The position numbers and the translations under genes were made by a program. A stretch of 64,000 bases of DNA, from contig NZ_LN999828.1 in assembly GCF_001517625.2 (NCBI RefSeq), positions 1,566,303 to 1,630,302 on the forward strand. The letters are read 5' to 3'. This DNA is from Clostridium sp. AT4 (GTDB lineage: Bacteria; Bacillota; Clostridia; Lachnospirales; Lachnospiraceae). Below, piece by piece: positions 3,446 to 61,397 of this stretch (positions within the stretch are counted from its first letter, which is position 1; each line of letters starts with the position of its first letter). Below the pieces are notes generated by a model. That model was not told where the DNA came from and did no database searches. It worked only from the letters and a program-made list of their open reading frames with translations.

Positions 3446-3739
3446 CAACAAGCCAAACCATTGAGAAAGAGGAGTAAGCTTCCAAAGCATTTTCACAGAG
3501 AGCCGCGGGTGGTGGGATCGCGGTACTAGGCTGGCAGCTGAATGGACTTTCGAGGGCGGTCCTGAACGATACAGACATACCGGTTACGGCAGTCGATGTA
3601 GGGACTGACGGATTCTGCACCCGTTATGCATGCAGCGCATATGATAGTATGTGAGAGTGGACTATTTCAGTCAATTTGAGTGGCACCGCGGATTCGATTC
3701 GTCTCAATTACAACCAGGTTGTAATTGGGACGTTTTTTT
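3446..3739 (+). ncRNA. T-box leader, tryptophan specifier (UGG)
   Basis: The leader has the order expected of a T-box. Stem I carries an AGTAA loop-E-like element (3474-3478), the AGAGAGCC segment and GGTGGGA apical part (3497-3517), and a TGG codon at 3543-3545 followed by a purine in the specifier loop. The conserved antiterminator sequence TGGCACCGCGG is at 3681-3691. A 15-bp terminator hairpin follows (3700-3714 with 3718-3732) and seven T residues. UGG predicts sensing of uncharged tRNA-Trp. Control would be transcription antitermination of the downstream ABC transporter under tryptophan starvation. Confidence 0.92.
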
Positions 3740-16838: not shown

Positions 16839-16944
16839 TTGTCAAGGCTATTTTATCTACCCTTTCCATCCTTTCAGGCAACAAAAAAGACCACCCCTCC
16901 AAAAGCCGCTGTATGCGTCCTTTGCTTAGATGATCTCTCTTCAT

Positions 16945-17302
16945 GTGTGAGCAAAACGATAAGCCGGGTTATGTCGTTGGATGGCCATCTATCTAGAACT
17001 GCTGTCGCCAGTAGTCTCAAGCAACCTACCCGGAAGCTGACGGGCCGCCATATGCTTCCTGTTTGGTCTTGCTTCGAGTGGGGTTTACATGTGCCCCGCC
17101 TGTTACCAGCCGGGCGGTAGTCTCTTACACTGCCCTTCCACCCTTACCTGCCTGCTTTCGCAGGCTGGCGGTATATTTCTGTTGCACTGTCCCTGGAGTC
17201 GCCTCCGCCAGACGTTATCTGGCACCCTGCCCTGTGAAGCCCGGACTTTCCTCTCCTGCGGCCTTTCGGTATCGCAGCAGCGGCCATCTGTCTTACTCAC
17301 AA
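16945..17302 (-). ncRNA. rnpB: RNase P RNA, class A
   Basis: Read on the minus strand the sequence contains the universal RNase P RNA blocks in order: GAGGAAAGTCCGGGCTTCAC near the 5' end (P4 strand), CAGGGTGCCAGATAACGTC, AACAGAAATATACCGCC, GGTAAGGGTGGAAGGGCAG, GTAAGAGACTACCG, and near the 3' end GACATAACCCGGCTTATCG. GTGAG at the 5' end and CTCAC at the 3' end close helix P1. The length, about 358 nt, fits class A. It is the catalytic subunit that matures tRNA 5' ends. Ends are accurate to a few bases. Confidence 0.96.
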
Positions 17303-45980: not shown

Positions 45981-47990
45981 TTATTCTGTCTTCTGTCCAG
46001 CCATAATCATCATAATCTCATTGCTGCGGCTGACAAACTTTGTCATTCGTTCAGGAGAAAGGGCTCCGTGGGAAAGACTTGCCAGATCGTAAAGCTGCTC
46101 ACAGATGGCGGCAGTATGTTCTCCTTCTTTATTTTCAAGCACATACTTAACCAGAGGATGGTTGGCATTAAGCACCAGGGTTTCTCCCATTCCGCCGAAC
46201 ATGCCCATATCCATTCCGCCCATGTTGTACATCTTCATCATATCCTGCATTCTTCTTGTTTCTTCGGATACGGTGATCATGGATGCAATGCCTGCATTCT
46301 TCATCTTTTCAACCTTGATATCCAGCTTATCATTATTTAAAGCCTTCTTAAATTCCTCGGTCAGCTCCTCAGAGGACTTCTTAAATTCCTCGTCATCCTC
46401 CTTTACTTCCTCCTTAAAGGAAGCGTTTAAGTCCGTATCAATACGCAGGAACTTCACGCCCTCTTTCTTCTGCTCCACATGGCTGATAAACGGATTGTCA
46501 ATGGCAGCCGGCATGATAACAGCATCGATCCCTTCCTCCTTAAAGAGGTTGATATACTGGCTCTGCTCCTTTTCGTCGGTTACATAGAAAATGGTATTTT
46601 CATGCTTTTCCTTATTCTCATCCAGGCAGTCCTGTAAGGTCAGATACTTGCCCTCCAGGTTCTTATACAGGATATAGTCGCCCATCTTATCTGCAAACTT
46701 CTCATCCTTGATATAGCCGAACTTGATGAAGGGAGCAATATCATCCCAGTATTTCTCATAGGTCTCACGATCTGTCTTGCACATACCGGACAGCTTGTCC
46801 GCTACCTTCTTTGTAATATAATCGGAAATCTTCTTTACAAAGCCGTCGTTCTGCAGAGCGCTTCTGGATACGTTTAACGGAAGATCCGGACAGTCGATCA
46901 CACCCTTTAACAGCATTAAGAACTCAGGGATTACTTCCTTGATATTATCTGCGATAAATACCTGGTTATTGTACAGCTTAATGGTTCCCTCGATGCTCTC
47001 GTACTCCATGTTGATCTTCGGGAAGTACAGAATACCCTTTAAGTTAAAGGGATAATCCATGTTCAGGTGGATCCAGAATAATGGCTCCTTGTAATCTCTG
47101 AATACCTTGCGGTAGAAATCCTTATACTGCTCCTCTGTACACTCGTTGGGATGCTTATTCCACAGAGGATTGGTGTCATTTAACGCTACAGGACGTCTTA
47201 AAATCTTATATTTTTCTCTGGACGGCTCGATCTCCACGGTTTCCTTGGTACCGTCCTCCTTTTCCTTCTCCTCGGTCTTTGCAGGCTCGATAACAGTCTC
47301 AACTACCGTATCCTTTTCGGTCAGTTCGTCCTTTTCGATGGTATCATACTGAGGCTCTGCAGTCTCATTCTCCAGGAAAATGCTTACAGGCATGAAAGCA
47401 CAGTATTTCTCAATAACCTCTCTTGCACGGTACTCGTTGGAGAACTCGGTGCTGTCCTCGTTGAGGTATAAAACAATGGTCGTACCAACCTCTGCCTTTT
47501 CTCCCTCTGTCATCTCATAGTCAATGCCGCCTTCAGACTCCCAGTGCACCGGCTTTGCATCCTTCTGATAGGATAAGGAATCAATGGTAACCTTATCTGC
47601 CACCATAAATGCGGAATAAAAGCCCAGACCGAAATGTCCGATGATCTGGTCTTCATTTGCCTTGTCCTTGTACTTCTCCATGAAGTCCTGAACGCCGGAA
47701 AATGCGATCTGGTTAATATATTTGTCAATCTCTTCCTCCGTCATGCCAAGGCCATTATCCCTGATGGTAATGGTCTTTTCATTGGGGTTTACGCTGACCT
47801 GGATCTTATACTCCACATCCTCAGGCTTTTCGTACTCGCCCATCAGCTCCAGCTTTTTAAGCTTGGTGATCGCGTCGCAGCCATTGCTGATCAGCTCGCG
47901 GTAAAAGATATCGTGATCGGAATAAAGCCACTTTTTGATCACAGGGAAAATGTTCTCGCTTGTAATAGATAAACTGCCTTTCTTTGCCAT
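45981..47990 (-). CDS. htpG: molecular chaperone HtpG (Hsp90)
   Basis: A 669-residue Hsp90 protein. The N-terminal GHKL ATPase has ELISNGCDAITKLKKL (Asn-box), TIRDNGLGMTEEEID and IGHFGLGFYSAF. The middle domain contains NVSRSALQNDGFVKKI (catalytic Arg region). The linker between them includes an acidic stretch (about residues 215-250) somewhat longer than in E. coli. It is a cytosolic ATP-dependent chaperone. The promoter at 48097-48125 and the CIRCE operator at 48133-48159 suggest HrcA repression and heat induction. Confidence 0.95.
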   Translation of the reverse strand: MAKKGSLSITSENIFPVIKKWLYSDHDIFYRELISNGCDAITKLKKLELMGEYEKPEDVEYKIQVSVNPNEKTITIRDNGLGMTEEEIDKYINQIAFSGVQDFMEKYKDKANEDQIIGHFGLGFYSAFMVADKVTIDSLSYQKDAKPVHWESEGGIDYEMTEGEKAEVGTTIVLYLNEDSTEFSNEYRAREVIEKYCAFMPVSIFLENETAEPQYDTIEKDELTEKDTVVETVIEPAKTEEKEKEDGTKETVEIEPSREKYKILRRPVALNDTNPLWNKHPNECTEEQYKDFYRKVFRDYKEPLFWIHLNMDYPFNLKGILYFPKINMEYESIEGTIKLYNNQVFIADNIKEVIPEFLMLLKGVIDCPDLPLNVSRSALQNDGFVKKISDYITKKVADKLSGMCKTDRETYEKYWDDIAPFIKFGYIKDEKFADKMGDYILYKNLEGKYLTLQDCLDENKEKHENTIFYVTDEKEQSQYINLFKEEGIDAVIMPAAIDNPFISHVEQKKEGVKFLRIDTDLNASFKEEVKEDDEEFKKSSEELTEEFKKALNNDKLDIKVEKMKNAGIASMITVSEETRRMQDMMKMYNMGGMDMGMFGGMGETLVLNANHPLVKYVLENKEGEHTAAICEQLYDLASLSHGALSPERMTKFVSRSNEIMMIMAGQKTE

Positions 47991-48175: not shown

Positions 48176-49387
48176 CTAGGGAAGAAAATCCCTTATTTTC
48201 CTGCTCCTGGACGGATTTCTCAGTTTTCTTAAAGCCGCCGTTTCAATCTGGCGGATACGTTCTCTGGTAACCTTAAACCGCTTTCCCACTTCCTCCAGTG
48301 TCATGGGATGGCCCGATTCCAGGCCAAAGCGCAGGATAATGACCTCCCGCTCTCTGGGGTTTAGACCCTGGAGCATCTGATCGATTTCTTCTCTTAAAAA
48401 TACGCTCTCAGCCTTTTCCTCTGTGGATGCGTTAGCATCGTCTGCCACAAAATCTCCCAGATTGGAACCGTCCTCATCACCCACCGGCGTCTCTAAAGAT
48501 ACTGTGTCGCCGGAAGACTGCATCAGCTCTGTGACCCTCTTTTCCGACATTCCTATCTCTTTCCCGATCTCCTCATTGGAAGGTTCCCGGCCCAGCCGCA
48601 CTGCCAGCATCCTCTGAGCCCTGCGCACCCGGTTTACAGCTTCTACCATGTGAACAGGAAGACGGATAGTTCTGGACTGATCCGCCAGCGCTCTTGTTAC
48701 AGACTGTTTTACCCACCAGGTAGCGTAGGTGCTGAGACGGTAGCCCTTTGTATAATCAAACTTTTCCACCGCTTTCATCAGGCCGATATTTCCCTCCTGG
48801 ACCAGATCCAGAAAGCTCATCCCGCGGCCTGTATAGCGCTTTGCAATGCTGACTACCAGCCTGAGATTGGCCTCTACCAGCTTCTGGCCTGCATGCAGGT
48901 CTCCTAAGGCCTTGCGTTTTGCCAATTCCTGCTCCTGCTCCTGGGTAAGAAGAGGAATGGAGCCGATTTCCTTTAAATATTCCCGGATCGGATCCGTACT
49001 GGCTACGCCCTCTAACAGCTGTTCGTGGGAATTTTCCTCATCTTCCTCATCATTGTCCGCAGATGGAGAAAAATCCTCATCATCTGTCTCGGAATCCTCC
49101 CTGTTCCAGCGGTATTTGCTGTTTATCAGTTCTGATACGGTATCCTCAGAATCATCCCCATCTTCTTCCAGAAGAAGTCCTTCATCCTCAGACGTATCCG
49201 TTCCCTCTTCTGCCAGAATCTGTACGCCCCGCTTTTCCAGTCTGGCATATACATCTTCCATTTCCTCCGGCGTTACTGCTTCATCTGCAAAGCAGTCTAA
49301 CACCTGGGTCATCTCAAGACGTTTGTCATGAGCCGCTGCCAAAGCAGTCAGTTCATCCAGTTTCTTCATCAGCTTTGTCTTATCCAT
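48176..49387 (-). CDS. rpoD: RpoD-type primary-like sigma-70 factor
   Basis: A 403-residue sigma factor with group 1 layout. Region 1.1 is in residues 1-58. A long acidic spacer (about 60-130) follows. Region 1.2-2.4 is recognised by [32 protein letters not shown] and [19 protein letters not shown]. Region 3 follows, then region 4 with [20 protein letters not shown] and [11 protein letters not shown]-like [16 protein letters not shown]. It directs RNA polymerase to -35/-10 promoters such as the many TTGACA/TATAAT sites in this window. The neighbours are not dnaG, so it may be a second, RpoD-like copy. Confidence 0.9.
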
Positions 49388-50156: not shown

Positions 50157-51314
50157 TTAAATTCCCGCTTTCCGATAGCGCTCTGCCATTTCTTCCAGAG
50201 ATACCTGCTCCACAAGAGGCGCTTTTCCAAAGGAGCCAAACTCTACGATCAGAGTCCCCACAACCTCTTTCACACCCCGTTCGATACAGTCCACAATGGC
50301 TGCTCGATCCTCATCCTCTACAACACCGTACATCACTGTGTCCATAATAGGAGGAAGGAATACCCTTGGATCAAACTGATCCTTCTTTTTCTCCAGAAGT
50401 TCATAAATTCCTCCTACCGAGGGACTGGTGCGAAGCTTTGGCTGGGCTGCAAACAGCTCCTTCATATTGCGCGTCACAGCCAAACGGATATCCGTATCCA
50501 CATTGATCTTATTAATGCCGCAGCGGATCGCTGCCTTTAACTGCTCAATGGAAATACCGTGGGTATCTGCAAGCTCCCCTCCCAGAGCGTTGATTTCATC
50601 TACAATGTATCCGGGAACGGTAGAGGAGCCATGGGAAACAAGAGCCCCAAAAATCCCCAGATGGTTCATACACTCACGGATTGCCACCGGGATTTCCTTA
50701 CGGAGCTTTACATTTTTCCCCTTTGAGGCTCCATGCATGGTTCCATAGGAAATCGCCAGTGCATCTACCCCTGTTTTCTGGAAAAATTCCACTGCGGACA
50801 ATGGATTCGTATAGGTGGAGGAAGCTGCAAACACATGATCCTCCACACCGGCCAGAACTCCCAGCTCTCCTTCTACGCTGACGCCTCTGGTATGAGCGTA
50901 TTTTACGACCTCTCTGGTCAGCTCCACATTTTCATCAAAGGGAAGGGAGGAGCCGTCGATCATGACAGAGGTATAGCCTCCCTCTATGGCTGCCACGCAG
51001 GAGTCAAAGTCTCTGCCGTGATCCAGATGGAGCACCACAGGAATGGCTGCTGTCTGAGCATATTTTTTTACTGCGCCGGCAATATTTCTGGCTCCGATCT
51101 TCTTATCCTCCAGAGTAGCGTGGATAAAATCCGTATTTCCTCCCATAAAGCCATTTGCCAGATCCGCCCCCTGCAGGATAGCTGCAGAGCGGAACATTTC
51201 ATGAACCTCTATGGCTGCCTTTGCCTGAGCAACCGCATTTACGTTAAATGCTCCCTGGCCGAAGCCGTATTTCATGGAAGCCTCCAAAAGAGGCCACAGG
51301 GGAATTAAAGACAT
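50157..51314 (-). CDS. class II (zinc-dependent) ketose-bisphosphate aldolase
   Basis: A 385-residue aldolase of the longer FbaA-like group. Zinc and catalytic residues are seen in VVLHLDHGRDFDS (residues about 94-106) and in the His of HGSSTVPGYI; the phosphate site resembles AISYGTMHGASKG and INKINVDTDIRLAVT. The family cleaves ketose 1,6-bisphosphates to DHAP and an aldehyde. The ATG overlaps the end of the LarA-like gene by ten bases, with GGAGG inside that gene. Last gene of the operon; a terminator follows. The aldehyde product need not be glyceraldehyde 3-phosphate. Confidence 0.85.
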   Translation of the reverse strand: MSLIPLWPLLEASMKYGFGQGAFNVNAVAQAKAAIEVHEMFRSAAILQGADLANGFMGGNTDFIHATLEDKKIGARNIAGAVKKYAQTAAIPVVLHLDHGRDFDSCVAAIEGGYTSVMIDGSSLPFDENVELTREVVKYAHTRGVSVEGELGVLAGVEDHVFAASSTYTNPLSAVEFFQKTGVDALAISYGTMHGASKGKNVKLRKEIPVAIRECMNHLGIFGALVSHGSSTVPGYIVDEINALGGELADTHGISIEQLKAAIRCGINKINVDTDIRLAVTRNMKELFAAQPKLRTSPSVGGIYELLEKKKDQFDPRVFLPPIMDTVMYGVVEDEDRAAIVDCIERGVKEVVGTLIVEFGSFGKAPLVEQVSLEEMAERYRKAGI

Positions 51315-52756
51315 GGATCTCCCTCCTTCATCATCAGATGGACTGCTCCCAGCTTAAAGGTCTTTGGCAGAGCCAATATATTTGGGTTTGGTCCTACAAA
51401 TTTTTTCTTTGCGTCCTCCAGAGCCTCCTCAATGGTGGCTCTGGTCTTAAGACCCATTCCTCTGGCATAGCCGGGTTCCTGGGCACCGCATACATAAATT
51501 GCCGACGTATTCATTTCTGCAATATGGGCCGAACTCATCATGGAAAAGCCGTGGAACGGATGGAAGGCATTGCAGTAGCGGTACTTGCGGATATATTCCT
51601 CATTGGTGGCAAAATATTCGCCGTAGCGGTTTAAATCCGGCAGAATATTCATGTAATCCTTCTGGAACATATCGTAAAGCTCTCTCATATAGGGCCATCT
51701 CTCATCATGGAAATAGCCGTTGCAGATGGAAGCGCAGATAATCACGCAGTGATCGCTCATGACCCGTTTATGGCGCACTACCTGTGCAGAAATGGCCTGC
51801 ATCATCATAACAGGATTGGTTCCCATGCCGTCGCCGTAATGGAACTTCTGCGGAAGGCCGAAAATCATTACATCATACTTCTTTTCAGCCCAGGGGATAT
51901 AGGTCCGCTTGTCGGCCGTAATCCAGGAGTGTGGCTGCATCACCTTTGCATAGCCGCTGTTGATCTCAATCTGTCTGGAATACGTATCCAAAACCGCGTC
52001 GCAGCAGAAAAACTTCTTTCCCATGCATTTTTCCATGTGCTGGCCGATCTCATCAAACTTGGTCCGCATAAGGGAGTGGCCGTTTACCGGGGTAAAATCC
52101 TTCCGGTGCATAACCTGAGGCACATGATGGGATGCAATGGAGCGCCAGTGGGTAATTCCTGTAGAACAGTGCTTATATCCTCCGGAATAGCCGCCGTAAG
52201 GATTTCCCTGGGTATGGCCGATAAGGATCGCCACATCACTGTCATACACATACTTATTCATAAGAACAGGGTCTCCCCGGTCTGTCGTTCCCAGATCAAC
52301 CATGTGTTCATAATCCTCGCTGTCATGGCTGATGATCTGGTGGGTATACCAGAATTCGTGGAACAGCTCCTCCCCCAGGATATCGCGGATCTCCTTTTCC
52401 GTACTTCTGGGATGAAGGCCGTTGGAGCAGATCAGCAGGATATCCTTTTTTTCTACCCCCACAGAGTACAGTTCTTGAAGGATCAGCTTAATGGAAATCT
52501 TCCGGTGAGCCGTGGGCTGAAGCCCTCCCTTTACAATATCCGGGAAAATAATGACCACCTTGGAACCCTTGTGGGCTAACTCTGTTAAAGGCGGCATTCC
52601 CATAGGGTTGCGGATGGATTTTAAGGTTTCCTCTTCTAATTTATCTTCCGGAATACAGGGCGGATCCGGCACCGTATCCCCTGGGATAAAAATGTCTGTA
52701 GAATCCGGCAGAACGGCATCTACCATGCCCTGCCCGTATTCAAATGATACTTTCAT
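51305..52756 (-). CDS. LarA-like (DUF2088) nickel-pincer racemase/epimerase superfamily protein
   Basis: This 483-residue protein resembles lactate racemase LarA. By motif spacing His115 (in NGLHPRST) matches LarA His108, Lys195 (SGGYK) the pincer lysine Lys184, and His211 the nickel ligand His200. The position of catalytic His174 is Asn185 here (GNPYGGYSGG), so the standard two-histidine racemase mechanism may not apply. Superfamily members racemise or epimerise 2-hydroxy acids with a nickel-pincer cofactor made by LarB, LarC and LarE, none of which is in the window. It lies between tpi-like and aldolase genes in one operon, so a sugar-acid or triose-acid substrate is plausible. Confidence 0.75.
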   Translation of the reverse strand: MKVSFEYGQGMVDAVLPDSTDIFIPGDTVPDPPCIPEDKLEEETLKSIRNPMGMPPLTELAHKGSKVVIIFPDIVKGGLQPTAHRKISIKLILQELYSVGVEKKDILLICSNGLHPRSTEKEIRDILGEELFHEFWYTHQIISHDSEDYEHMVDLGTTDRGDPVLMNKYVYDSDVAILIGHTQGNPYGGYSGGYKHCSTGITHWRSIASHHVPQVMHRKDFTPVNGHSLMRTKFDEIGQHMEKCMGKKFFCCDAVLDTYSRQIEINSGYAKVMQPHSWITADKRTYIPWAEKKYDVMIFGLPQKFHYGDGMGTNPVMMMQAISAQVVRHKRVMSDHCVIICASICNGYFHDERWPYMRELYDMFQKDYMNILPDLNRYGEYFATNEEYIRKYRYCNAFHPFHGFSMMSSAHIAEMNTSAIYVCGAQEPGYARGMGLKTRATIEEALEDAKKKFVGPNPNILALPKTFKLGAVHLMMKEGDPCL

Positions 52757-52781
52757 ATAAAAACTCTCCTTCCCAAATGCT

Positions 52782-53624
52782 TTAAGCTTTTTCTGCTGTC
52801 AGGTACAGCTTTACGATTTCCAGATATTCCTCCGGATAAAATCCGATCTCACCTGAAAAACGGGTCAGCGCAATCAGTCCGCCGTCCATATCCGGCACAG
52901 AAGCAAGCATCGCGGCATTGTCCTGCTTTAATCCGCCTCCGTAAACCACGTCCATGCCTCCGGTAATCTCTTTTACAAATGCGCCGATTTTCTGGATATA
53001 CTCCTTATCCGGCGGGGTTTTTCCCGGCCCGATGGCCCATACGGGCTCATATGCAATGGTTACGCAGCCTTTGTCCACATCCTTTAAGCCTTCCTCCAGC
53101 TGCGTTCTTAAAACCTCCTGCCATCTGGGCTGCTCCTCTGAGGTCTCTCCGATACAGTAAAGCACCTTCAGACCGGCCCGTACCGCCTCCCGGATCTCCT
53201 GATTTAAAATTTTGTTTACAGCCGACGGATCTCCTCCTCCCGCGGCAAGGATCCCCGCCTTATCCTTTCGTTCCTCACAGTGGCCGATCAGCACACAGCT
53301 GCATCCCAAAGCCCTGGCCGCATTAGCGGTACGGCTGGTGGTAAAGGCTCCAAAGTTTCCTCCCACTGCCGTATCCTGGCGGAATACTCCCTGGCAGCCC
53401 ACCTTTACGGGACTGCCTTCACAAAGAGCCCCTGCCGCCGTGAGCACATGAGCCTCCGGGAAAAACATGGCAAATTCCACATTCTCTGTTTCATACTCCA
53501 TAAGCTCCTTCTGGGTCTGATCCACAATATAGGAACCCCAGTCCTTCACGGCAGCAATAGCGTTTACGCCGCCATACTCCTTCGGAATATCAAAACGCTT
53601 CAGATTTAAAAAGATATGCTTCAT
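52782..53624 (-). CDS. triosephosphate isomerase paralogue
   Basis: A 280-residue TIM-barrel protein with the catalytic set Asn7-Lys9 (LNLKRF), His115 (IGHCEERKD) and Glu193 (AYEPVWAIG). The usual SERR after the histidine is CEERKD, and the phosphate-binding GGS is YGGGLKQDN. It is about 30 residues longer than typical TpiA, with an insert near residues 118-135. It probably interconverts the triose phosphates from the neighbouring aldolase, possibly non-standard ones. Its ATG overlaps the stop of the phosphofructokinase gene by four bases. Confidence 0.85.
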   Translation of the reverse strand: MKHIFLNLKRFDIPKEYGGVNAIAAVKDWGSYIVDQTQKELMEYETENVEFAMFFPEAHVLTAAGALCEGSPVKVGCQGVFRQDTAVGGNFGAFTTSRTANAARALGCSCVLIGHCEERKDKAGILAAGGGDPSAVNKILNQEIREAVRAGLKVLYCIGETSEEQPRWQEVLRTQLEEGLKDVDKGCVTIAYEPVWAIGPGKTPPDKEYIQKIGAFVKEITGGMDVVYGGGLKQDNAAMLASVPDMDGGLIALTRFSGEIGFYPEEYLEIVKLYLTAEKA

Positions 53625-54814
53625 TCTCTGTCCTCTCTTCTTTCCCTGTATATCTCCTGAAAATCAATATAGTCCGGCGTTTCCTCCCCGGTAAGAGGCC
53701 GGCACCAGCTTACAAATTCATCCGTCACATCATTTCCCCGGTCATTGATATAGGAAGCCGGAAGCGTCCGCTCTGTAAGCATCACCTGTTCGACCGGAAT
53801 ACGGATGGGACGAATCTCATATTCCTCCTGCTTTCTGCGCTCAAAACCGATCATAATACCCGTACAGCCCTCCATGGCAGCTTTTAAAGCCTCTCTTCCC
53901 GCAAGTACTGCCTCCTCGCGGTCCACCGGGGACTGAAGGGAAATGGAAGCTCTGCCGCAAAGCCCCGGCTTTTCGCTTCTGGCCTTAATTCCCAGCTTTT
54001 TGATCACCAGCTCTGCCAGATAAGCTCCCACGTCTCCGTAGTAGACGGAACGGCCTGTCTGGAAAATGGGAGGCACGACAGGTTTTCCGCTTTCATCCTT
54101 TAAGCCCTCGCTGGCGACCACAACCACACCGCCCAGCCTGTCATACAGCTCCTTCACATCTGCCAGAAATTCCTCTTCCCTGAAAGGACGCTCCGGAAGA
54201 TAGATCAGGTGCGGCGCATCCCCGTGTTTTTTCCTCGCCAGAGCCGAGGCCGCTGTAATCCAGCCTGCATTGCGCCCCATGGCCTCTAAAATACACACAT
54301 GAATGGGAAGAGATTTCACATCCGCCCCTATCTCAGCCGTTGTTCTGGCTATATACCGGGCCGCGCTGCCGTAGCCCGGAGTATGATCTGTAATGCCGAT
54401 ATCATTATCAATGGTCTTTGGGATTCCTGCCACCCGGATATCTGAGTCTGGACCTAAAGCCCTCACCAGCTTTCCGCAGGCGTCCATCGTGCCGTTTCCC
54501 CCATTAAAAAGCACATATCGGATATGGTGCTTACGGAAAATGGCCTCCATTGCCTTATAATCTTCCTCCTCCAGCGCATATCGGGAAGAGCCAATGGCAG
54601 TTCCCGGCGTGGTAAGGAGCTTTTTCAGCTCTTCTTCAGGAAACCGGGACAGATTTAAAAACCGTTCCTTTAAAATTCCCTCGCTTCCGCCGATGGCTCC
54701 GTAAACTGCGCCCACTGCGCCGCTTTCCCTTGCTTCAAGAAGTACGCCGTACAGCGATGCATTCAGCACTGCCGTAGGCCCTCCTCCATGAACAACCAGT
54801 ACATTGTCCCTCAT
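53621..54814 (-). CDS. 6-phosphofructokinase family protein, PKTIDND type
   Basis: A 397-residue PfkA-fold kinase with GGGPTAVLNAS (residues 10-20), GGNGTMDACGKL (105-116), PKTIDND (132-138, catalytic Asp), and EAMGRNAGW. The lysine in PKTIDND is shared with pyrophosphate-dependent and clade X enzymes, whereas the glycine in GGNGT resembles ATP-using forms. The phosphoryl donor is therefore uncertain. It would make a ketose bisphosphate for the neighbouring aldolase. It overlaps the tpi-like gene by four bases and lies 20 bases after the NagB-like gene, so translation is coupled. Confidence 0.85.
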   Translation of the reverse strand: MRDNVLVVHGGGPTAVLNASLYGVLLEARESGAVGAVYGAIGGSEGILKERFLNLSRFPEEELKKLLTTPGTAIGSSRYALEEEDYKAMEAIFRKHHIRYVLFNGGNGTMDACGKLVRALGPDSDIRVAGIPKTIDNDIGITDHTPGYGSAARYIARTTAEIGADVKSLPIHVCILEAMGRNAGWITAASALARKKHGDAPHLIYLPERPFREEEFLADVKELYDRLGGVVVVASEGLKDESGKPVVPPIFQTGRSVYYGDVGAYLAELVIKKLGIKARSEKPGLCGRASISLQSPVDREEAVLAGREALKAAMEGCTGIMIGFERRKQEEYEIRPIRIPVEQVMLTERTLPASYINDRGNDVTDEFVSWCRPLTGEETPDYIDFQEIYRERREDRE

Positions 54815-54834
54815 AAACCAACCTGCCTTTCTTC

Positions 54835-55656
54835 TCAGTCAGACAGAGCTGCCACATAATCCGTAAAGGTAAGGGTAAGATCCGGGTGGCTCTGGAGTAG
54901 GCTTACGGGAAAATCCGAGGACGGTTCACCGTATGCGGCCCTCCGCACCACTGCCCGATGCCAGTTTCTAAAGCAGCCCAGACGGATTTTTCTCGCATGA
55001 GCGATCTCATAAATACCAATGGTTACGCAGTAATGAGGCATATCCTCAAGAGCTCCGTTAAAATCTCCGATGGCATTGGCCGTCCGTGTTTCAGGGGTAA
55101 TTGCAAGCACACGGGTCTTCTGACCCAGAAATTCCTCATTGGCCAGCGACGCATCTGCTTCATTAAAAGCCACATGGCCGTTAATGCCGATTCCTCCAAA
55201 GGCAATATCCACGCCTCCCAGCTCTTCAATCAGTTTTGGGACCCGTTCCGTATCAAAAGGATCCGGAAATACCCGCTGTTCTTTGGGCATCACAAGTTCT
55301 GGGCGTATCCTGTCATATACGGTACGGTTCATAAATCCCCGAAAGCTCAGAGGATGATCCTCTGGCACCCAGCGCTTCTCATCATCCAGATATTCGTCCA
55401 TATTGATAAACCATACATTTTTAAGACTGATATTCTGCTCATTTACCAGATCCACAAAATACGGATACTGTCCCACCGGCCCTACCGGACAGATAAAGAC
55501 GGTGTGCTTTCCCTCTGCATTATGAGCTTTGATCTCTTCTGCCATCTGCTCTGCCATCTGTTTAAATACAGCAGCATTATCCTCCAAGCAAAACAGCTTC
55601 ATTTTTGGATTTTCCAAAAGCTGCTCTTTTGTATAGCTGTAATAGTCGTGTTTCAT
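54835..55656 (-). CDS. glucosamine-6-phosphate deaminase/isomerase-like protein (NagB family)
   Basis: The ATG at 55656 with AAGGAG five bases upstream gives 273 residues. NagB-like motifs are present: NVWFINMDEYLD (base Asp region) and GGIGINGHVAFNEAD (the catalytic His loop). A PVGP motif in IFCPVGPVGQYP replaces the SGGSTP-like phosphate loop of typical NagB. The family converts amino-ketose or aldose/ketose phosphates in the cytosol. First enzyme gene of the run, so it may perform the isomerisation before phosphorylation by the PFK-like enzyme. Substrate not predictable. Confidence 0.8.
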   Translation of the reverse strand: MKHDYYSYTKEQLLENPKMKLFCLEDNAAVFKQMAEQMAEEIKAHNAEGKHTVFICPVGPVGQYPYFVDLVNEQNISLKNVWFINMDEYLDDEKRWVPEDHPLSFRGFMNRTVYDRIRPELVMPKEQRVFPDPFDTERVPKLIEELGGVDIAFGGIGINGHVAFNEADASLANEEFLGQKTRVLAITPETRTANAIGDFNGALEDMPHYCVTIGIYEIAHARKIRLGCFRNWHRAVVRRAAYGEPSSDFPVSLLQSHPDLTLTFTDYVAALSD

Positions 55657-55710
55657 AACTGCTCCTTTCCCTGTCACGCAGGCCCTTCTGCCATTTTTCC
55701 GCCATAAAGA

Positions 55711-55746
55711 GAGCGTCCGGCGCCCCAACCGGCCCCCAGGACGCTC
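55711..55746 (-). terminator. GC-rich intercistronic hairpin between the binding-protein and NagB-like genes
   Basis: GAGCGTCC (55711-55718) pairs with GGACGCTC (55739-55746), with further GC pairs inside. Only a short T-rich stretch (TCTCTTTAT) follows on the minus strand. It may act as a partial terminator that keeps binding-protein mRNA more abundant than the enzyme genes. Confidence 0.6.
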
Positions 55747-55759
55747 CCTGCAATGATTT

Positions 55760-56842
55760 TTACTTACCTGCTTCGATCATATTGTCAAGCATTACATAAT
55801 CTGCTACAGGAACTTCCTTTTCCACCTGTCCTCCGGCAATGAAATTCTCCTGCTGGATCTTGTAGTAATTCTCTACGGTTCCGTCTGCTGCACCTTCTGA
55901 TACTTCCTTTCCGGTCAGCCAGTCTGCATCGCCTCTCTGGTCAAATACGCTTGCTTCATCTGTCTTTGTAATATCGGCAACTGCCTTTGCAGTCTCCTCA
56001 TAGTGATCGTCTGCCGCATAATCCATTCCTTTAAAGAGCGCTTTTGTAAAGCGAAGGATGGTATCCTGATTCTCCTCTGCATACTTTGGAGTTACGATCC
56101 AGCTTGCCAGAGAAACGGTAGTATCCTTAAAGGTCATATTATCAGCCAGCTTGGTTGCCTCCGGAATCTCTTCCATGATCTTTAAGCTGTTTGGAGACCA
56201 GGTAGCACAGGCATCTACGCCACCTGAAATCATTGCCGTAACAATACCGGATGCGTCCATATCAACGGCCTGGATATCGCTCATGGTCATACCGGCCTTT
56301 GTAAGTGTATTATTTAAAATATCCTCACTGGATGTACCGGAGGAATAAGCCACCTTCTTACCCTTTAAATCTTCCATGGTCTTCACACTTGGTCCGCCGA
56401 TCACAGCGTCGCCGTTGGAAATATGGGACAATGCAAAAATCTTGGCCTGGCCGTTGACACAAAGCTTGTGTGCGCCCTGTCCGATATAGCCGATATCAAT
56501 ACTGCCGGACTCCATCGCCGCAATGATGGTAGGGCCATCTGCAAAGGATACCAGATTCAGCTTAATTCCTTCTTCTTCCATGAATCCCTGAGCCTGTGCT
56601 GCCGCCACAGACCAAAGGCTTCCATAGTTTGGCATATATGCAATATTTAATGTAATGGGCTCTGCCGCTGCCTCTGTCTTTTCCTCTTCTGCCTTTGTCT
56701 CCTTTTCAGTTTCAGCCTTGGACGTTTCCTCTGCTTTGGATGCCTCCGCAGACTCCGGAGCCTTTGTCTCAGGAGCAGAACTTCCGCCGGAGCAGGCTGT
56801 CACGGACAATGCCATTGCTGCTGCTAAAAAACGTTTTTTCAT
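55760..56842 (-). CDS. ABC transporter substrate-binding lipoprotein, NMT1/SsuA type
   Basis: A 360-residue lipoprotein (signal with lipobox SVTAC, Cys17), then a Lys/Glu/Ala-rich linker (to about 62) and an NMT1-like domain: LNIAYMPNYGSLWSVAAAQAQGF, AMESGSIDIGYIGQGAHKL, VAYSSGTSSEDILNNTL and GGVDACATWSP. Such proteins feed nitrate-, sulfonate- or taurine-type importers and bind small anionic or aromatic ligands. AAGGAGG at 56851-56857 is intact. The IS element ends 25 bases upstream and separates it from its permease and ATPase genes. Confidence 0.85.
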   Translation of the reverse strand: MKKRFLAAAMALSVTACSGGSSAPETKAPESAEASKAEETSKAETEKETKAEEEKTEAAAEPITLNIAYMPNYGSLWSVAAAQAQGFMEEEGIKLNLVSFADGPTIIAAMESGSIDIGYIGQGAHKLCVNGQAKIFALSHISNGDAVIGGPSVKTMEDLKGKKVAYSSGTSSEDILNNTLTKAGMTMSDIQAVDMDASGIVTAMISGGVDACATWSPNSLKIMEEIPEATKLADNMTFKDTTVSLASWIVTPKYAEENQDTILRFTKALFKGMDYAADDHYEETAKAVADITKTDEASVFDQRGDADWLTGKEVSEGAADGTVENYYKIQQENFIAGGQVEKEVPVADYVMLDNMIEAGK

Positions 56843-56862
56843 AGATTTGTATCCTCCTTAAA

Positions 56863-56867
56863 ATAAA
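56863..56867. repeat. target-site duplication, left copy
   Basis: ATAAA directly abuts the left inverted repeat of the IS element and is repeated exactly at 58522-58526. Confidence 0.8.
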
Positions 56868-58521
56868 CCTGAATTATTCACGGAACAGTATCTGAATTGA
56901 TAACAGTACCATGAATCTGAAAATTGATCCATGCAGCCATAACATCACTCAATTAACCCGTCAAAAGGGTATAAAATCCCTGTGGCAGAGTTCAGAGCAG
57001 TTGTTAAGCTGTCAATGTTCGTTAATAGTTGCTATTCCAGCTGTACATTCAGCTTGCCGATATTTGAAAGTGTCTCATAGAATTCATTCTTATAGGGGCA
57101 ACTGCTGCACAGTTTGAATGTGATATATCCTGCTGAATGAACTACTTTTGCAGCAATCTTCAGCAATTTTAAACGGACGGTATCAATGCGTTGCTTTCTC
57201 ATATTTGCTGATAGCACCAATCTTCTAAACCAATTAAATATGTTATACGCAAGAGCATGTACCTGCAGTCTATTGGCATTTACCATTCTGGTATGACTGC
57301 TTACGGACGCAAAATCAAAACCGGATTTGCTTTCTTTAATGAAGTTTTCCATCAGCCCTCGCTTGCAGTAAAATTTGATGAGATACTCTGGTGAGGAATC
57401 CATGTTTGTGACAACAAATGTGTACATGTAAACCATTTGGTTTTCCGGCTTTTCAACCTTGCATACCACACGCCTTCCATAAGGCCATGAACTCGCTCTA
57501 TACATGAATTCGCCATAGGCTACTGCATAATCGACTTTATTATTTTTGGTGATCTCATCAAGCTCATTCACAAGATAGGATGCTTTTTTACGGAGAATGC
57601 CATTCTCCTTCAGCCGGATCACATAGCTTGTGCCGTTTTCCTCACACTGCTTATAAAGATCAGGTGTAGCGAAACCGCTGTCACCACGAAGCAGAATACG
57701 GATCGCCGGATAATCATTCAGGTATTCATCAAGTATCGGCTGCAGGAAGTCAACCACTCCGGTAGAGGAATACTCGGTTCCATCACGAAGCTGGATTTTT
57801 ACCAGATCTCCGGTCATTCCATCATAACAGACAAGTGGATGGTATCCATTGCTTTGATAATGAAAGTTAAAGGCTCTGCCTTCCTGTTTGCCGTATGCAT
57901 CAAGAAGAGTGGAATCCAGATCCAGAATAACAGCCTGTGGCATCTGAATACGATAAACTCTCTTTCGGAGTATTCTGCCAATCATAAGTAACTGGTTTAA
58001 GGTATCTTCATCCATACGGTTAAAGAATCTTGATACCGTAGGCTGTGATGCAAGGGTGTCTTTTTCAAGTACAGACTTGAATACAGGATCATTTGTAAGT
58101 TCATCGGAAGTATCATCTTCAAAGTAGCCTGCAATGATCATATATATCATCTGGAGCAGGTTTTTCTGATCTGTATGATATCTGAATAATGCAGAATCGT
58201 TGGTCTTGAAAACTTTGCCTAAAAGATTATCAATACCAAGTTTTCTTACGAATTCTTTGATGAGAAGCAATCCTGCATCGGAGGATAAATCTCCTCCATC
58301 AAAATTTATTTTAATTTGTCTATTGCTTTCTAGTGATAAGGTGTTTACAATACTCATAAAGGGCTCCTTTGTTGGTATTTATTTTGATTAGACACCTTAA
58401 TTTTACCACAAATGGATGCTCTTTTTTCATTCACTTGATAGGTGAAAAGCAATATTCAGTTAAAATACAGTAACTATGTGGCTTTCAGCCACATTCGTGG
58501 CAAAGTCGTGAATAATTCAGG
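56868..58521 (-). mobile_element. IS1380-family insertion sequence (complete)
   Basis: The 1654-bp element is bounded by perfect 15-bp inverted repeats, CCTGAATTATTCACG (56868-56882) and CGTGAATAATTCAGG (58507-58521). It is flanked by the 5-bp duplication ATAAA. It carries one full transposase gene on the minus strand, in the same direction as the interrupted operon. Length, repeat type and duplication length fit the IS1380 family. The stretch 56883-57031 downstream of the transposase has no gene. The intact ends and matching duplications point to a recent insertion. Confidence 0.93.
57032..58357 (-). CDS. IS1380-family transposase
   Basis: The 441-residue DDE transposase begins MSIVNTLSLESNRQIKINFD and carries the three acidic sites of IS1380 enzymes: Asp in VILDLDSTLLDAYG, Asp in LLRGDSGFATPD and Glu in MENFIKESKSGFDF. 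A YHPLVCYDGMTGDLVK segment after the first Asp is also typical. The frame is complete, so the element may be active. It catalyses cut and rejoining of the 15-bp ends. Confidence 0.94.
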   Translation of the reverse strand: MSIVNTLSLESNRQIKINFDGGDLSSDAGLLLIKEFVRKLGIDNLLGKVFKTNDSALFRYHTDQKNLLQMIYMIIAGYFEDDTSDELTNDPVFKSVLEKDTLASQPTVSRFFNRMDEDTLNQLLMIGRILRKRVYRIQMPQAVILDLDSTLLDAYGKQEGRAFNFHYQSNGYHPLVCYDGMTGDLVKIQLRDGTEYSSTGVVDFLQPILDEYLNDYPAIRILLRGDSGFATPDLYKQCEENGTSYVIRLKENGILRKKASYLVNELDEITKNNKVDYAVAYGEFMYRASSWPYGRRVVCKVEKPENQMVYMYTFVVTNMDSSPEYLIKFYCKRGLMENFIKESKSGFDFASVSSHTRMVNANRLQVHALAYNIFNWFRRLVLSANMRKQRIDTVRLKLLKIAAKVVHSAGYITFKLCSSCPYKNEFYETLSNIGKLNVQLE

Positions 58522-58526
58522 ATAAA
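58522..58526. repeat. target-site duplication, right copy
   Basis: ATAAA directly after the right inverted repeat, identical to 56863-56867. Confidence 0.8.
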
Positions 58527-58562
58527 TGATATAGTTTTGAAACACTTACCCTTTTGCTCCTA

Positions 58563-59354
58563 TTACTTTCTTACTTCCAGATACTCCTTATATACTTCAC
58601 CCCAGATATACGTCTTAAGATCCAGGAACGGAAGCTCCATCTTCATTTCCTGTGTTCTCGGATACGGAAGGTTGATATCTACGATCTTTTTGATACGGCC
58701 CGGCCTTGCACTCATAATAATAACCTTGGTTGCAAGGATAACAGCCTCCTCTACATCATGTGTAATAAAGAAACAGGTCTTTTTCTCCTCCTGCCACGTT
58801 TTGATCAGCTCTGACTGAAGCTGCGTCCTTGTTTGGGCGTCTAAGGCTCCGAAGGGTTCATCCATCAAAAGCACCTCCGGCTGTACCGCATAGGCTCTAG
58901 CAATAGCTACCCTCTGCTTCATGCCGCCGGAAAGCTCCTTTGGATAAGCATCCACAAAATCCTCCAGCTGTACCATCTTTATGTACTTCATGGCAACCTC
59001 TCTTGCCTCGTCATCCTTCATCCCCTTTAATTTAAGGCCGAACATGACATTTTTAAGAACGGTCAGCCATGGAAATAATGCATACTGCTGAAATACCACG
59101 CCCCGCTCGGTCCCGGTTCCCTCTACCTTCTTTCCATCTACATATACTGCTCCGGAGGTAGGCTCCAAGAGGCCTGCAATGATATTTAACAGCGTGGACT
59201 TTCCGCAGCCGGACGGGCCTACCACACAGATAAATTCATTTTCCATAATATCAAGATCCACGCCGTTTAAAGCAACCATACGGCCCTTGCGACCATCGTA
59301 GATCTTTTCCACATGGTCAATCTTGACCTTTACACGTTTCTCGTCTCCTGCCAT
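58563..59354 (-). CDS. ABC transporter ATP-binding protein, SsuB/TauB type
   Basis: A 263-residue ABC ATPase of the nitrate/sulfonate/taurine group: Walker A GPSGCGKST, Q-loop VVFQQYALFPW, signature LSGGMKQR, Walker B VLLMDEPFGALD and switch FITHDVEEAVIL. It overlaps the permease gene by 25 bases at its start. The IS element now separates it from the binding-protein gene that follows on the same strand; without the element the gap would have been about 61 bases. Confidence 0.9.
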   Translation of the reverse strand: MAGDEKRVKVKIDHVEKIYDGRKGRMVALNGVDLDIMENEFICVVGPSGCGKSTLLNIIAGLLEPTSGAVYVDGKKVEGTGTERGVVFQQYALFPWLTVLKNVMFGLKLKGMKDDEAREVAMKYIKMVQLEDFVDAYPKELSGGMKQRVAIARAYAVQPEVLLMDEPFGALDAQTRTQLQSELIKTWQEEKKTCFFITHDVEEAVILATKVIIMSARPGRIKKIVDINLPYPRTQEMKMELPFLDLKTYIWGEVYKEYLEVRK

Positions 59355-60139
59355 CCGGTGAACCTCCTTTCCAGATATTTAATGATCTTTTCACTGGTGA
59401 TCCCGATAATGCCGATCATGATAATATAAAGCAGCATAGGCTCCACTTCAAAGGTGTTATTTAAAGAACGGATCCTCATTCCCATACCTGCGATCGCGCC
59501 TGTAGACTCAGCGGCGATCAGGGTTGTAAGAGCTACGGATACGCCCAGGCGGACTGCGGTAATGATAAATGGAGTCGTGGCCGGGAAAATAACCTTTACA
59601 AACAGATCGCTGTCCTTTGCGCCCAGCACCTTTGCAGCTTTGATCAAGGTCTCGTCTACGTTGCGCACACCCTGATAAATCGTCACGGTCATAATAAGGA
59701 AGGTTGCCAGCCAGATCACGATGACCTGAGGCCGTCTTCCTACTCCGGCAGAAATAACCACCAGCGGAACATAGGCCAGAGGCGGGATGTTACGGATGAA
59801 CTGGATCCACGGCTCTACAATGTAGCGCACCGGCCGGTACCAGGCCATGAGAAAGGCTACCGGAACCGATGTAACAAAGCCAAGGACAAAGCCCATCACC
59901 ACGGAAATCATACTGCTGCTGAAATCCTGCCACAGTACGCCTCGCTCGATCATGGTACCCAGGGACGCCAGCACCTCCGGCGCAAAGGGAAAGCTGCGGG
60001 CCGTAGTCGGATTCACAGACAGCCATTTCCACAGAAGCATCGCTGCAAGAAAGGAAATAAGCAGCCAGCCCCAGTTGGGGATACGGCTGATGATATCCCG
60101 CTGCGCATGATCTTTCTTCCTGTTTTCATCAGAAGCCAT
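59330..60139 (-). CDS. ABC transporter permease, SsuC/TauC type
   Basis: A 269-residue permease of the BPD_transp_1 family with about six hydrophobic segments and the EAA-like loop KAAKVLGAKDSDLFVKVIFPATTPFI. It begins the minus-strand run, with the LacI-type gene diverging 235 bases away. It forms the channel for the ligand captured by the NMT1-like lipoprotein. A TATACT box lies at 60218-60223 (minus strand) without a clear -35. Confidence 0.88.
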   Translation of the reverse strand: MASDENRKKDHAQRDIISRIPNWGWLLISFLAAMLLWKWLSVNPTTARSFPFAPEVLASLGTMIERGVLWQDFSSSMISVVMGFVLGFVTSVPVAFLMAWYRPVRYIVEPWIQFIRNIPPLAYVPLVVISAGVGRRPQVIVIWLATFLIMTVTIYQGVRNVDETLIKAAKVLGAKDSDLFVKVIFPATTPFIITAVRLGVSVALTTLIAAESTGAIAGMGMRIRSLNNTFEVEPMLLYIIMIGIIGITSEKIIKYLERRFTGWQETRNV

Positions 60140-60257: not shown

Positions 60258-60267
60258 CAAACGTTTG
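60258..60267. promoter_or_regulatory. LacI-type operator in the divergent intergenic region
   Basis: CAAACGTTTG is a perfect palindrome with the central CG of LacI/GalR operators, between the LacI-type gene and the transporter operon. Confidence 0.6.
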
Positions 60268-60374: not shown

Positions 60375-61397
60375 ATGACACTGAAGGAAATCGCTGCCGA
60401 GACAGGCGTATCCATTTCCACCGTATCGCGGGTAATCAATAAAAGCAGCAAATCTCCGGCCAGGAAAGAGGTTCAGGACAAAATCTGGGAAATCGTCCGG
60501 CGCACCGGCTATACCCCAAATCATACAGCCAGGGAACTAAAAAAAGGCTCTTCCACTGAGAAAGAACCCTTATCCCGCTCGCTTGCCTGCCTGTTTGCCA
60601 GAGTAGAGGATGGAGCCGCTGACAGCTTCTTTACTCCTCTTGCAAGGAGCATCGAAAAAGAGGCGTTCCGCCACGGCTATATATTAAAATATACCTTTTC
60701 CACCTTTGATATCCATCATCCCAGCACCTTCCGCCTCATTGAAGACAATCAGGCAGACGGCGTAGCGGTCCTGGGACGGTGCGATAAAGAGCTGTTAAAA
60801 TTTTTAAAACAGTATTTTAAGTATGTTGTGTATGCCGGACTCAACAGCCTGGACGCCAAATATGACCAGATCATCTGCGACGGCGGTCAGGCCGCTTATG
60901 CTGCAGTCAGCCGTCTCATTGAACTTGGACATAAAAAAATCGCCTATATCGGCGAAACAGATAAAGAAGAGCGCTATAACGGATACTGCCGGGCTCTCGA
61001 ACATGCAGGAATCCCTATTTTAAAGGGATATATCAGCAATGTAAAGCTCTCCTCCGAAGGAGGATACCAGGGAGCCAATATCCTGTTCGACAGAGACTGC
61101 GATGCCACAGCCTGGTTCTGTTCTAACGATATGACCGCGATTGGAGCCATGCGTGCCGTAAAGGAGCACGGACTTCAGATACCGGAGGATATCTCCATTA
61201 TCAGTATCGATGATATTGATACGGCCCAGTATCTGACCCCCATGCTCACCACGGTCCACATCCCCATCGAAGAGATGGGAAAAATGGCCGCAAAAACACT
61301 CATCGACCGAATCGAAGGCGGCCATACCCTGCCGATGAAAATCAACTTTCCGTTTTATATTGCAGGAAGGGAAAGCTGCAGGGAGTATCGGGGGTAA
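60375..61397 (+). CDS. LacI-family transcriptional regulator of the transporter/enzyme operon
   Basis: The 340-residue protein has a LacI helix-turn-helix (LKEIAAETGVSISTVSRVIN, residues 3-22) and a hinge region (YTPNHTARELKKG). The effector domain includes GHKKIAYIGETDKEERYNGY and WFCSNDMTAIGAMRAVKEHG. AAGGAGG precedes the ATG. It diverges from the ABC-transporter operon and is the only regulator nearby, so it probably senses the pathway substrate or an intermediate and acts at the palindrome at 60258-60267. A LacI regulator is usual for sugar systems, but less so for an SsuA/NMT1-type transporter. Confidence 0.88.
   Translation: MTLKEIAAETGVSISTVSRVINKSSKSPARKEVQDKIWEIVRRTGYTPNHTARELKKGSSTEKEPLSRSLACLFARVEDGAADSFFTPLARSIEKEAFRHGYILKYTFSTFDIHHPSTFRLIEDNQADGVAVLGRCDKELLKFLKQYFKYVVYAGLNSLDAKYDQIICDGGQAAYAAVSRLIELGHKKIAYIGETDKEERYNGYCRALEHAGIPILKGYISNVKLSSEGGYQGANILFDRDCDATAWFCSNDMTAIGAMRAVKEHGLQIPEDISIISIDDIDTAQYLTPMLTTVHIPIEEMGKMAAKTLIDRIEGGHTLPMKINFPFYIAGRESCREYRG

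Follow-up and report, generated by a model that had tools for sequence, protein, structure and literature searches.

In a 64,000-nt stretch of the genome of Clostridium sp. AT4 (contig NZ_LN999828.1, positions 1,566,303 to 1,630,302; the window in what follows), we found a minus-strand operon (60139-50157) made of genes for an SsuA/Tau-type ATP-binding cassette (ABC) importer and for NagB-, PFK-, TPI-, LarA- and class II aldolase-like proteins. We tentatively read the operon as a LacI-controlled copy of the N-acetylglucosamine (GlcNAc)-6-phosphate/Embden-Meyerhof-Parnas (EMP) route for sugars that carry an anion other than phosphate at C6. The likeliest anion would be a sulfo group, chiefly that of GlcNAc-6-O-sulfate from mucin.

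Operon genes and their housekeeping paralogues

Profile searches bore out the genes, the families, the coordinates and the divergent LacI regulator that had been claimed in an earlier note on this stretch (the original prediction). The overlaps of pfk with tpi (4 bp), of larA with the aldolase gene (10 bp) and of the permease gene with the ATPase gene (25 bp) fit a single transcript. In the family search, the operon genes included no oxidoreductase, no phosphotransferase system (PTS) and, apart from the PFK-like protein, presumed to be the C1 kinase of a ketose, no sugar kinase. The lack of a dedicated sugar kinase, noted already in the original prediction, fits our reading; none would be needed if the substrate already bears an anion at C6.

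With the operon copies included, the genome has two TPI, six PFK, three class II aldolase and two NagB-type genes. The identity of the operon proteins to their paralogues was 26% for TPI, 29-35% for the aldolase, 27% for NagB and 30-43% for PFK (over four of the five other PFK paralogues, including one partial frame). None of the five operon enzymes passed a listed NCBIfam equivalog cut-off, while subfamily cut-offs were passed by the PFK-like protein (NF010675) and, narrowly, by the aldolase (TIGR00167). These figures support a set of enzymes separate from housekeeping glycolysis, as had been proposed; judged by copy number, identity and motifs rather than by trees, the operon does not hold the only glycolytic genes of the organism.

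Conservation of the tpi-larA pair

Orthologues of the window LarA (69-100% identity, with the next best match at 34%) were found in 31 of 397 genomes of the same family, the own genome included, and a tpi-like gene was near larA in all 30 contexts retrieved from these genomes. A scan of genome contigs yielded 554 encoding stretches; the best 80 of them, some cut by contig ends, are called here the named loci. Their genera include Enterocloster, Hungatella, Lacrimispora, Blautia, Flavonifractor, Caproiciproducens, Paenibacillus and Treponema, so that orthologous loci occur far beyond close strains, as the original prediction needed.

The tblastn counts in the 80 named loci, made with thresholds of our own choice, were 66 for tpi (62 on the same strand and within 1.7 kb), 55 for pfk, 44 for the aldolase, 41 for NagA-like, 39 for lacI, 37 for NagB-like, 29 for the permease, 25 for the binding protein, 22 for TauE, 16 for PGI-like, six for SftI-like, five for ketohexokinase and two for PMI-like genes. 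Fourteen named loci had no tpi, and one Paenibacillus locus (L113) had none of the listed partners. Other variants beside tpi-larA had transketolase- or RPE-like genes (by eye), RpiB- or AraD-type genes, or a transaldolase gene. The PF25270 ketohexokinase was found in loci devoid of pfk, which suggests that phosphorylation of C1 suffices.

In Bacillota and some Spirochaetes, therefore, tpi and larA form a conserved pair that interchangeable enzymes (isomerases of the NagA/NagB-, PGI-, PMI- or SftI-like kinds, PFK or ketohexokinase, and aldolase) would feed; this is new here. In most cases, the last reaction of the exchangeable upstream part would yield a three-carbon aldehyde. Since tpi-larA is the most constant part, the pair would process that fragment.

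Three loci with NagB-type genes (L036, L055 and L081) and a fourth member of their cluster also encode a DUF4838 protein, possibly a glycosidase. In L044 and L102, tpi-larA is accompanied by genes of a nucleoside hydrolase, a nucleoside-type ABC importer and RpiB, with an operator-like site (see below) before the hydrolase gene.

Altered phosphate sites

Motifs and operators were recounted on the window and the named loci. The residue roles in TPI, NagB, NagA, PGI and PFK are those that we take these positions to have. The TPI-like proteins do not have the YGGS...GGAS grip by which loops 7 and 8 of triosephosphate isomerase hold the phosphate: YGGS was changed to YGGG and the GGAS loop to an IALTR type in 56 of 56 sequences (GGAS motif in 0/56). 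The catalytic motifs were kept, NLKR in 56, IGHxEER in 53 and YEPxW in 53 of the 56. The fold and the catalytic Asn, Lys, His and Glu of triosephosphate isomerase are present; a fold search with an AlphaFold model confirmed the fold only.

The same pattern was seen upstream. The NagB-like proteins lack the canonical phosphate-binding loop and Lys of NagB, the loop being shortened and rebuilt to PVGPVGQY (29/30) and the Lys region changed to R[ND]WHR (28/30); the AlphaFold2 model of the window protein had a pLDDT of 93. The phosphate-Arg region of the NagA-like proteins was changed to HQH (34/39), and SKSGTT of PGI to AK[ND]FxT (15/15). The PFK-like proteins were mixed, with GGNGT in 34 and GGNDS in 7 of 56; the window protein has GGNGT where the pyrophosphate-type paralogues of its own genome have GGNDS. 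The aldolases share a clade-specific SHGSS (38/38).

Thus, the residues assigned to the distal phosphate appear to be replaced family-wide while the catalytic residues are kept, which is also new here. Because four enzyme families change the distal-phosphate grip together, C6 would carry something other than phosphate, and the new Arg, His and Trp of the NagB-like proteins along with the Arg of the TPI-like ones favour another anion.

A conserved operator and a remote NagA-like gene

The predicted LacI operator core CAAACGTTTG occurs at two places in the 3.41-Mb genome: one is before the operon, the other 82 bp ahead of a NagA-like gene that lies at a distance of 52 kb. The protein encoded by this remote gene is 73% identical to the NagA-like protein of L106, where the gene directly follows larA. 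The likeness and the shared core together make the remote gene a candidate, under the same predicted operator, for the step missing from the operon.

Across the loci, AAACGTTT was found upstream of 33 of the 37 lacI relatives, where 0.023 would be expected per 320 bp. Sites resembling the operator preceded lacI (37), pfk (35), the permease gene (7) and the aldolase gene (4) in the 80 named loci; in the unnamed set such a site preceded TauE in two loci. Pooled counts of the two locus sets, which share genomes, were similar (lacI 43/51, TPI loop 81/82). A LacI operator conserved for the pathway is accordingly predicted, and is new here. That loci with different upstream enzymes have the same operator suggests that they respond to one effector and therefore share a lower intermediate.

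The His-to-Asn subfamily of LarA

The window LarA matched PDB entries 9q2u (866 bits) and 9q3j (862 bits) over its length, compared to at most 78 bits for other LarA structures. Entries 9q2u/9q3k and 9q3j presumably are LarA_Bw and LarA_Sp of PMC12611868. The parts of that paper drawn on here describe a subfamily with Asn in place of the second catalytic His, report that LarA_Sp had no lactate racemisation activity and that LarA_Bw from Lactococcus was obtained without the nickel-pincer nucleotide (NPN), and note glycolysis-like enzyme genes next to larA in Blautia wexlerae and Streptococcus plurextorum. They provide structures with no reaction assigned and propose carbohydrate processing; regulon, substrate or phosphate-site analysis does not appear in these parts. 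The operon is thus undescribed, as had been claimed, only in part: a 2025 paper (PMC12611868, same parts) had already described the subfamily and its glycolysis-like neighbours.

In the numbering of that paper, N185 was invariant across 10 aligned relatives, as were H115 (the first catalytic His), K195 (the NPN-linking Lys), H211 (a Ni ligand), and D73 and K76 (cofactor). The Asn motif was present in 72 of 73 sequences from the window and the named loci and the canonical His motif in none. The window protein has in common with LarA_Bw and LarA_Sp the Asn, the NPN-binding Lys and His, the active-site His and Tyr and the glycolysis-like neighbours; it differs in that its genome has no LarB or LarC. 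Among the 31 genomes with this LarA, LarB was below the cut-off in 11 and LarC absent in 10. The persistence of the NPN-binding residues in genomes devoid of LarB/LarC implies that the organisms scavenge the cofactor, make it by another way or do without it.

The own genome has a second LarA homologue outside the window (L161:7215-8501), which adjoins UxaA-like dehydratase genes (by eye). In two genomes, larA is split in two or truncated (L060 of G198 and L061 of G258); the pathway may be decaying there.

Links to sulfur compounds

The importer subunits scored best among sulfonate/taurine-type families, and the six PDB matches of the lipoprotein include SsuA and taurine-binding proteins. L049 has an importer of a second type, and its binding protein likewise resembles SsuA. 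We also observed that TauE/SafE exporter genes cluster near larA in relatives, which is new here: 18 of 66 copies were at most 12 kb from larA, in 15 of the 31 genomes (0.44 expected; the 12-kb limit was set after the distances were seen). In two further genomes, G149 and G253, TauE is 63 bp from a remote NagA-like gene.

Sulfatases are common in the genomes (29 of 31, with up to 53 copies). In loci of the Lacrimispora type, sulfatase genes stand beside aldolase-tpi-larA-ketohexokinase, although the LacI-type operator of these loci separates the sulfatase gene from the aldolase gene. Enrichment of sulfatases near larA is not claimed, as few loci have the sulfatase motif and the genomes commonly have sulfatases.

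NagA/NagB is the commonest entry module and points to an N-acetylated glucosamine. Gut sulfoglycosidases release free GlcNAc-6-O-sulfate (PMC11659886, PMC11186840, in the parts drawn on here). Among the open-access literature matches listed, no pathway of the proposed kind was present; of the sulfated intermediates sought in this literature, fructose-6-sulfate, glyceraldehyde-3-sulfate and dihydroxyacetone sulfate were not found, only glucose-6-sulfate. The review PMC12890257 does not contain the words SftI, TauE, glucosamine, triose or racemase.

Proposed pathway and alternatives

With X for the group at C6, the route that we infer would run as follows. The SsuA-type importer would take up the sugar with its C6 anion; the NagA-like enzyme encoded elsewhere in the genome would remove the acetyl group; the NagB-like enzyme, by deaminating isomerisation, would give fructose-6-X; the PFK-like kinase would phosphorylate C1; and the aldolase would cleave the product to dihydroxyacetone phosphate, which would enter glycolysis, and glyceraldehyde-3-X. 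The TPI-like and LarA-like enzymes would then convert the C3-X compound with no net redox change, plausibly by isomerisation. In many relatives, either the anion or the C3-X product would leave the cell through a TauE/SafE exporter.

A speculative alternative for the last steps is elimination of sulfate or sulfite to give methylglyoxal, from which an internal hydride step of the LarA-like enzyme would produce lactate. Elimination with an internal hydride shift is proposed because the operon has no oxidoreductase and handling of the C3 fragment would be redox-neutral. To our knowledge, an internal hydride shift to lactate with removal of sulfate or sulfite is known for no LarA enzyme. In its fullest form, a parallel glycolysis for 6-sulfated hexoses, where sulfate stands in for the C6 phosphate as far as the triose and the TPI/LarA pair desulfates and makes lactate, the proposal seems unlikely to us.

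Several observations weigh against a LacI-controlled route for a C6 anion. The core is not over-represented, with two places compared to three for the backwards control, and the operator evidence is, for this reason, one of position. In the congener G119, the site before the NagA-like gene is degenerate (AAACGCTTG), which slightly reduces our confidence, and the second exact core of that genome falls within an unrelated open frame. The window genome (97% complete) has no LarB or LarC recognisable by profile search, which makes an NPN-dependent step uncertain. In the genus of the window, no TauE gene is close to the operon, and no SftI-like gene is present in the window itself. The three SftI-like isomerases tested scored 224-249 bits for the sulfoquinovose isomerase SftI (next family 23-37), far below the 700-bit cut-off. 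Open reading frames with the type I sulfatase motif were found in 2 of 30 same-family contexts (L043 and L060) and in 9 of 80 named loci. The N or D at a phosphate position of the PGI-like proteins argues weakly against another anion. In L044, a rare variant, tpi-larA stands with genes for a nucleoside hydrolase and for an RpiB above the canonical cut-off, a combination that fits a sulfo-sugar poorly, and some loci have a PTS EIICD. Finally, an insertion sequence (IS) of the IS1380 family may impair the operon in this strain.

A sulfonate, as in 6-deoxy-6-sulfo hexoses (C-S bond) such as sulfoquinovose, would make the operon a new sulfo-EMP-type route, in which 3-sulfolactaldehyde would be the C3 fragment left over. 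The SftI-like (6/80) and PGI-like (16/80) genes, TauE near larA and the SsuA-type importer agree with it, but NagA/NagB as the commonest entry (41 and 37 of 80) needs an N-acetylated amino sugar, and we know of no natural C-sulfonated GlcNAc. Besides, with no oxidoreductase among its genes, the window operon offers neither a reductase nor a dehydrogenase for sulfolactaldehyde. On balance, we think this version improbable.

It is quite improbable that X is OH or H, i.e., that the substrates are free or 6-deoxy sugars and the phosphate grips were lost because C6 is uncharged. The replacement of PFK by ketohexokinase in some loci and the N/D of the PGI-like phosphate loop would suit such sugars; the conserved Arg, His and Trp at the distal site of the NagB-like proteins, the Arg of the TPI-like ones and the importer type would not.

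A carboxylate (GlcNAc uronate, glucuronate or mannuronate), with tartronate semialdehyde as the C3 remnant, one of the alpha-hydroxy acids on which LarA enzymes normally act, has little chance in our view. Different aldose isomerases do seem to converge on one ketose, and the characterised LarA enzymes use alpha-hydroxy acids (PMC12611868, in the parts drawn on here). Yet the importer and exporter families indicate sulfo compounds, and in this LarA subfamily, where LarA_Sp lacks lactate activity (PMC12611868, same parts), active-site residues are changed.

An ordinary duplicate of GlcNAc-6-phosphate and glycolysis genes, whose content would follow the logic of GlcNAc catabolism, is very improbable given the housekeeping copies elsewhere, the listed equivalog cut-offs that were not passed (though subfamily cut-offs were, for PFK and the aldolase), the family-wide absence of the phosphate-site motifs and an operon with no other sugar kinase or PTS.

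Insertion element and other features of the window

Table 1. Operon genes, regulatory site and insertion element in the window.
Feature	Position	Strand	Remarks
LacI-family regulator	60375..61397	+	Divergent; Pfam LacI and Peripla_BP_3; relatives adjoin the pathway in other genomes
Predicted LacI operator, core CAAACGTTTG, extended TTACCCAAACGTTTGCC	60258..60267		LacI-permease gap
Predicted LacI operator, sequence form TTACGCAAACGTTTGCGTAA			
ABC permease, TauC/SsuC-like	59330..60139	-	PF00528; best NCBIfam TauC, 126 bits (cut-off 342)
ABC ATPase, TauB-like	58563..59354	-	NCBIfam taurine ATPase, 257 bits (cut-off 357)
SsuA/NMT1-type substrate-binding lipoprotein	55760..56842	-	PF09084, 84.5 bits; TIGR01728 SsuA_fam, 138 bits, below cut-off (163.5)
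NagB-like isomerase/deaminase, phosphate loop rebuilt	54835..55656	-	TIGR00502, 108 bits (cut-off 237)
PFK-like kinase	53621..54814	-	NF010675 subfamily, 404 bits (cut-off 273)
TPI-like isomerase, loop 7/8 phosphate grip replaced	52782..53624	-	Fold and motif comparison
LarA homologue, His-to-Asn subfamily (N185)	51305..52756	-	PDB 9q2u and 9q3j matches
Class II ketose-bisphosphate-type aldolase	50157..51314	-	PF01116, 239.5 bits; SHGSS
IS1380-family element	56868..58521	-	Between ATPase and lipoprotein genes; not a pathway part

The transposase gene of the IS1380 element (57032-58357) scored 397 bits for NF033539 (cut-off 180). The element ends in 15-bp perfect inverted repeats (56868-56882 and 58507-58521) and is flanked by direct ATAAA repeats. 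In the relative L032, the ATPase and lipoprotein genes are adjacent, with no IS element between them. The element interrupts neither the lipoprotein gene nor its ribosome-binding site, but the genes downstream of it may depend on read-through in this strain. A plasmid search with the IS region gave no match. The account of the operon in the original prediction was incomplete, having left out this element, the remote NagA-like gene, the altered phosphate sites and the TauE and SftI links.

Downstream of the operon are a housekeeping sigma-factor gene (48176-49387) and an HtpG-like gene (45981-47990), both named by eye, and the same clusters follow in L032. Elsewhere, the window has an ordinary T-box leader (3452-3709, plus strand) and an ordinary RNase P RNA (16944-17299, minus strand). 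In another locus, the operon adjoins a gene of a chemoreceptor-like protein (L052:11985-13916; by eye), one region of which is similar to the binding protein of the window; this suggests chemotaxis to the pathway substrate.

Comparison with known systems and significance

The operon has the reaction order and the enzyme families of the NagA-NagB-PfkA-Fba-TpiA route of GlcNAc-6-phosphate, from which it differs by the replaced distal phosphate sites, the absence of an entry kinase or PTS and the additional LarA. Its logic is that of sulfoglycolysis (sulfo-EMP, and the transaldolase and transketolase variants sulfo-TAL and sulfo-TK), where a sugar is isomerised, phosphorylated or subjected to transfer, and cleaved to a usable C3 and a sulfo-C3 compound. 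Some relatives of the operon also share SftI-like isomerases and TauE-type exporters with it. On the other hand, the window operon differs by its amino-sugar entry, PFK-A-type kinase, class II aldolase and TPI/LarA pair, and neither of two sulfo-EMP markers, sulfoquinovose isomerase and sulfolactaldehyde reductase/dehydrogenase, is among its genes. With Ssu/Tau sulfonate importers, the operon shares the families of all three subunits, while its own subunits are below every equivalog cut-off shown.

The results suggest a second, separately regulated glycolysis-like set of enzymes for sugars with another charged group at C6, perhaps sulfate, as in GlcNAc-6-sulfate from mucus. The His-to-Asn LarA subfamily is thereby placed in a pathway, linked to an operator and given a few candidate substrates that can be tested. 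The consulted part of PMC11186840 names Bifidobacterium breve as a GlcNAc-6-sulfate user. If the sulfo reading is true, the bacteria with this operon would be an added group of consumers of a mucin-derived sulfated sugar, and a new route of sulfur release by gut bacteria would follow. If a glycolysis of 6-sulfated hexoses does operate, many gut Bacillota and some Spirochaetes would use GlcNAc-6-sulfate with no sulfatase, after its release by sulfoglycosidases.

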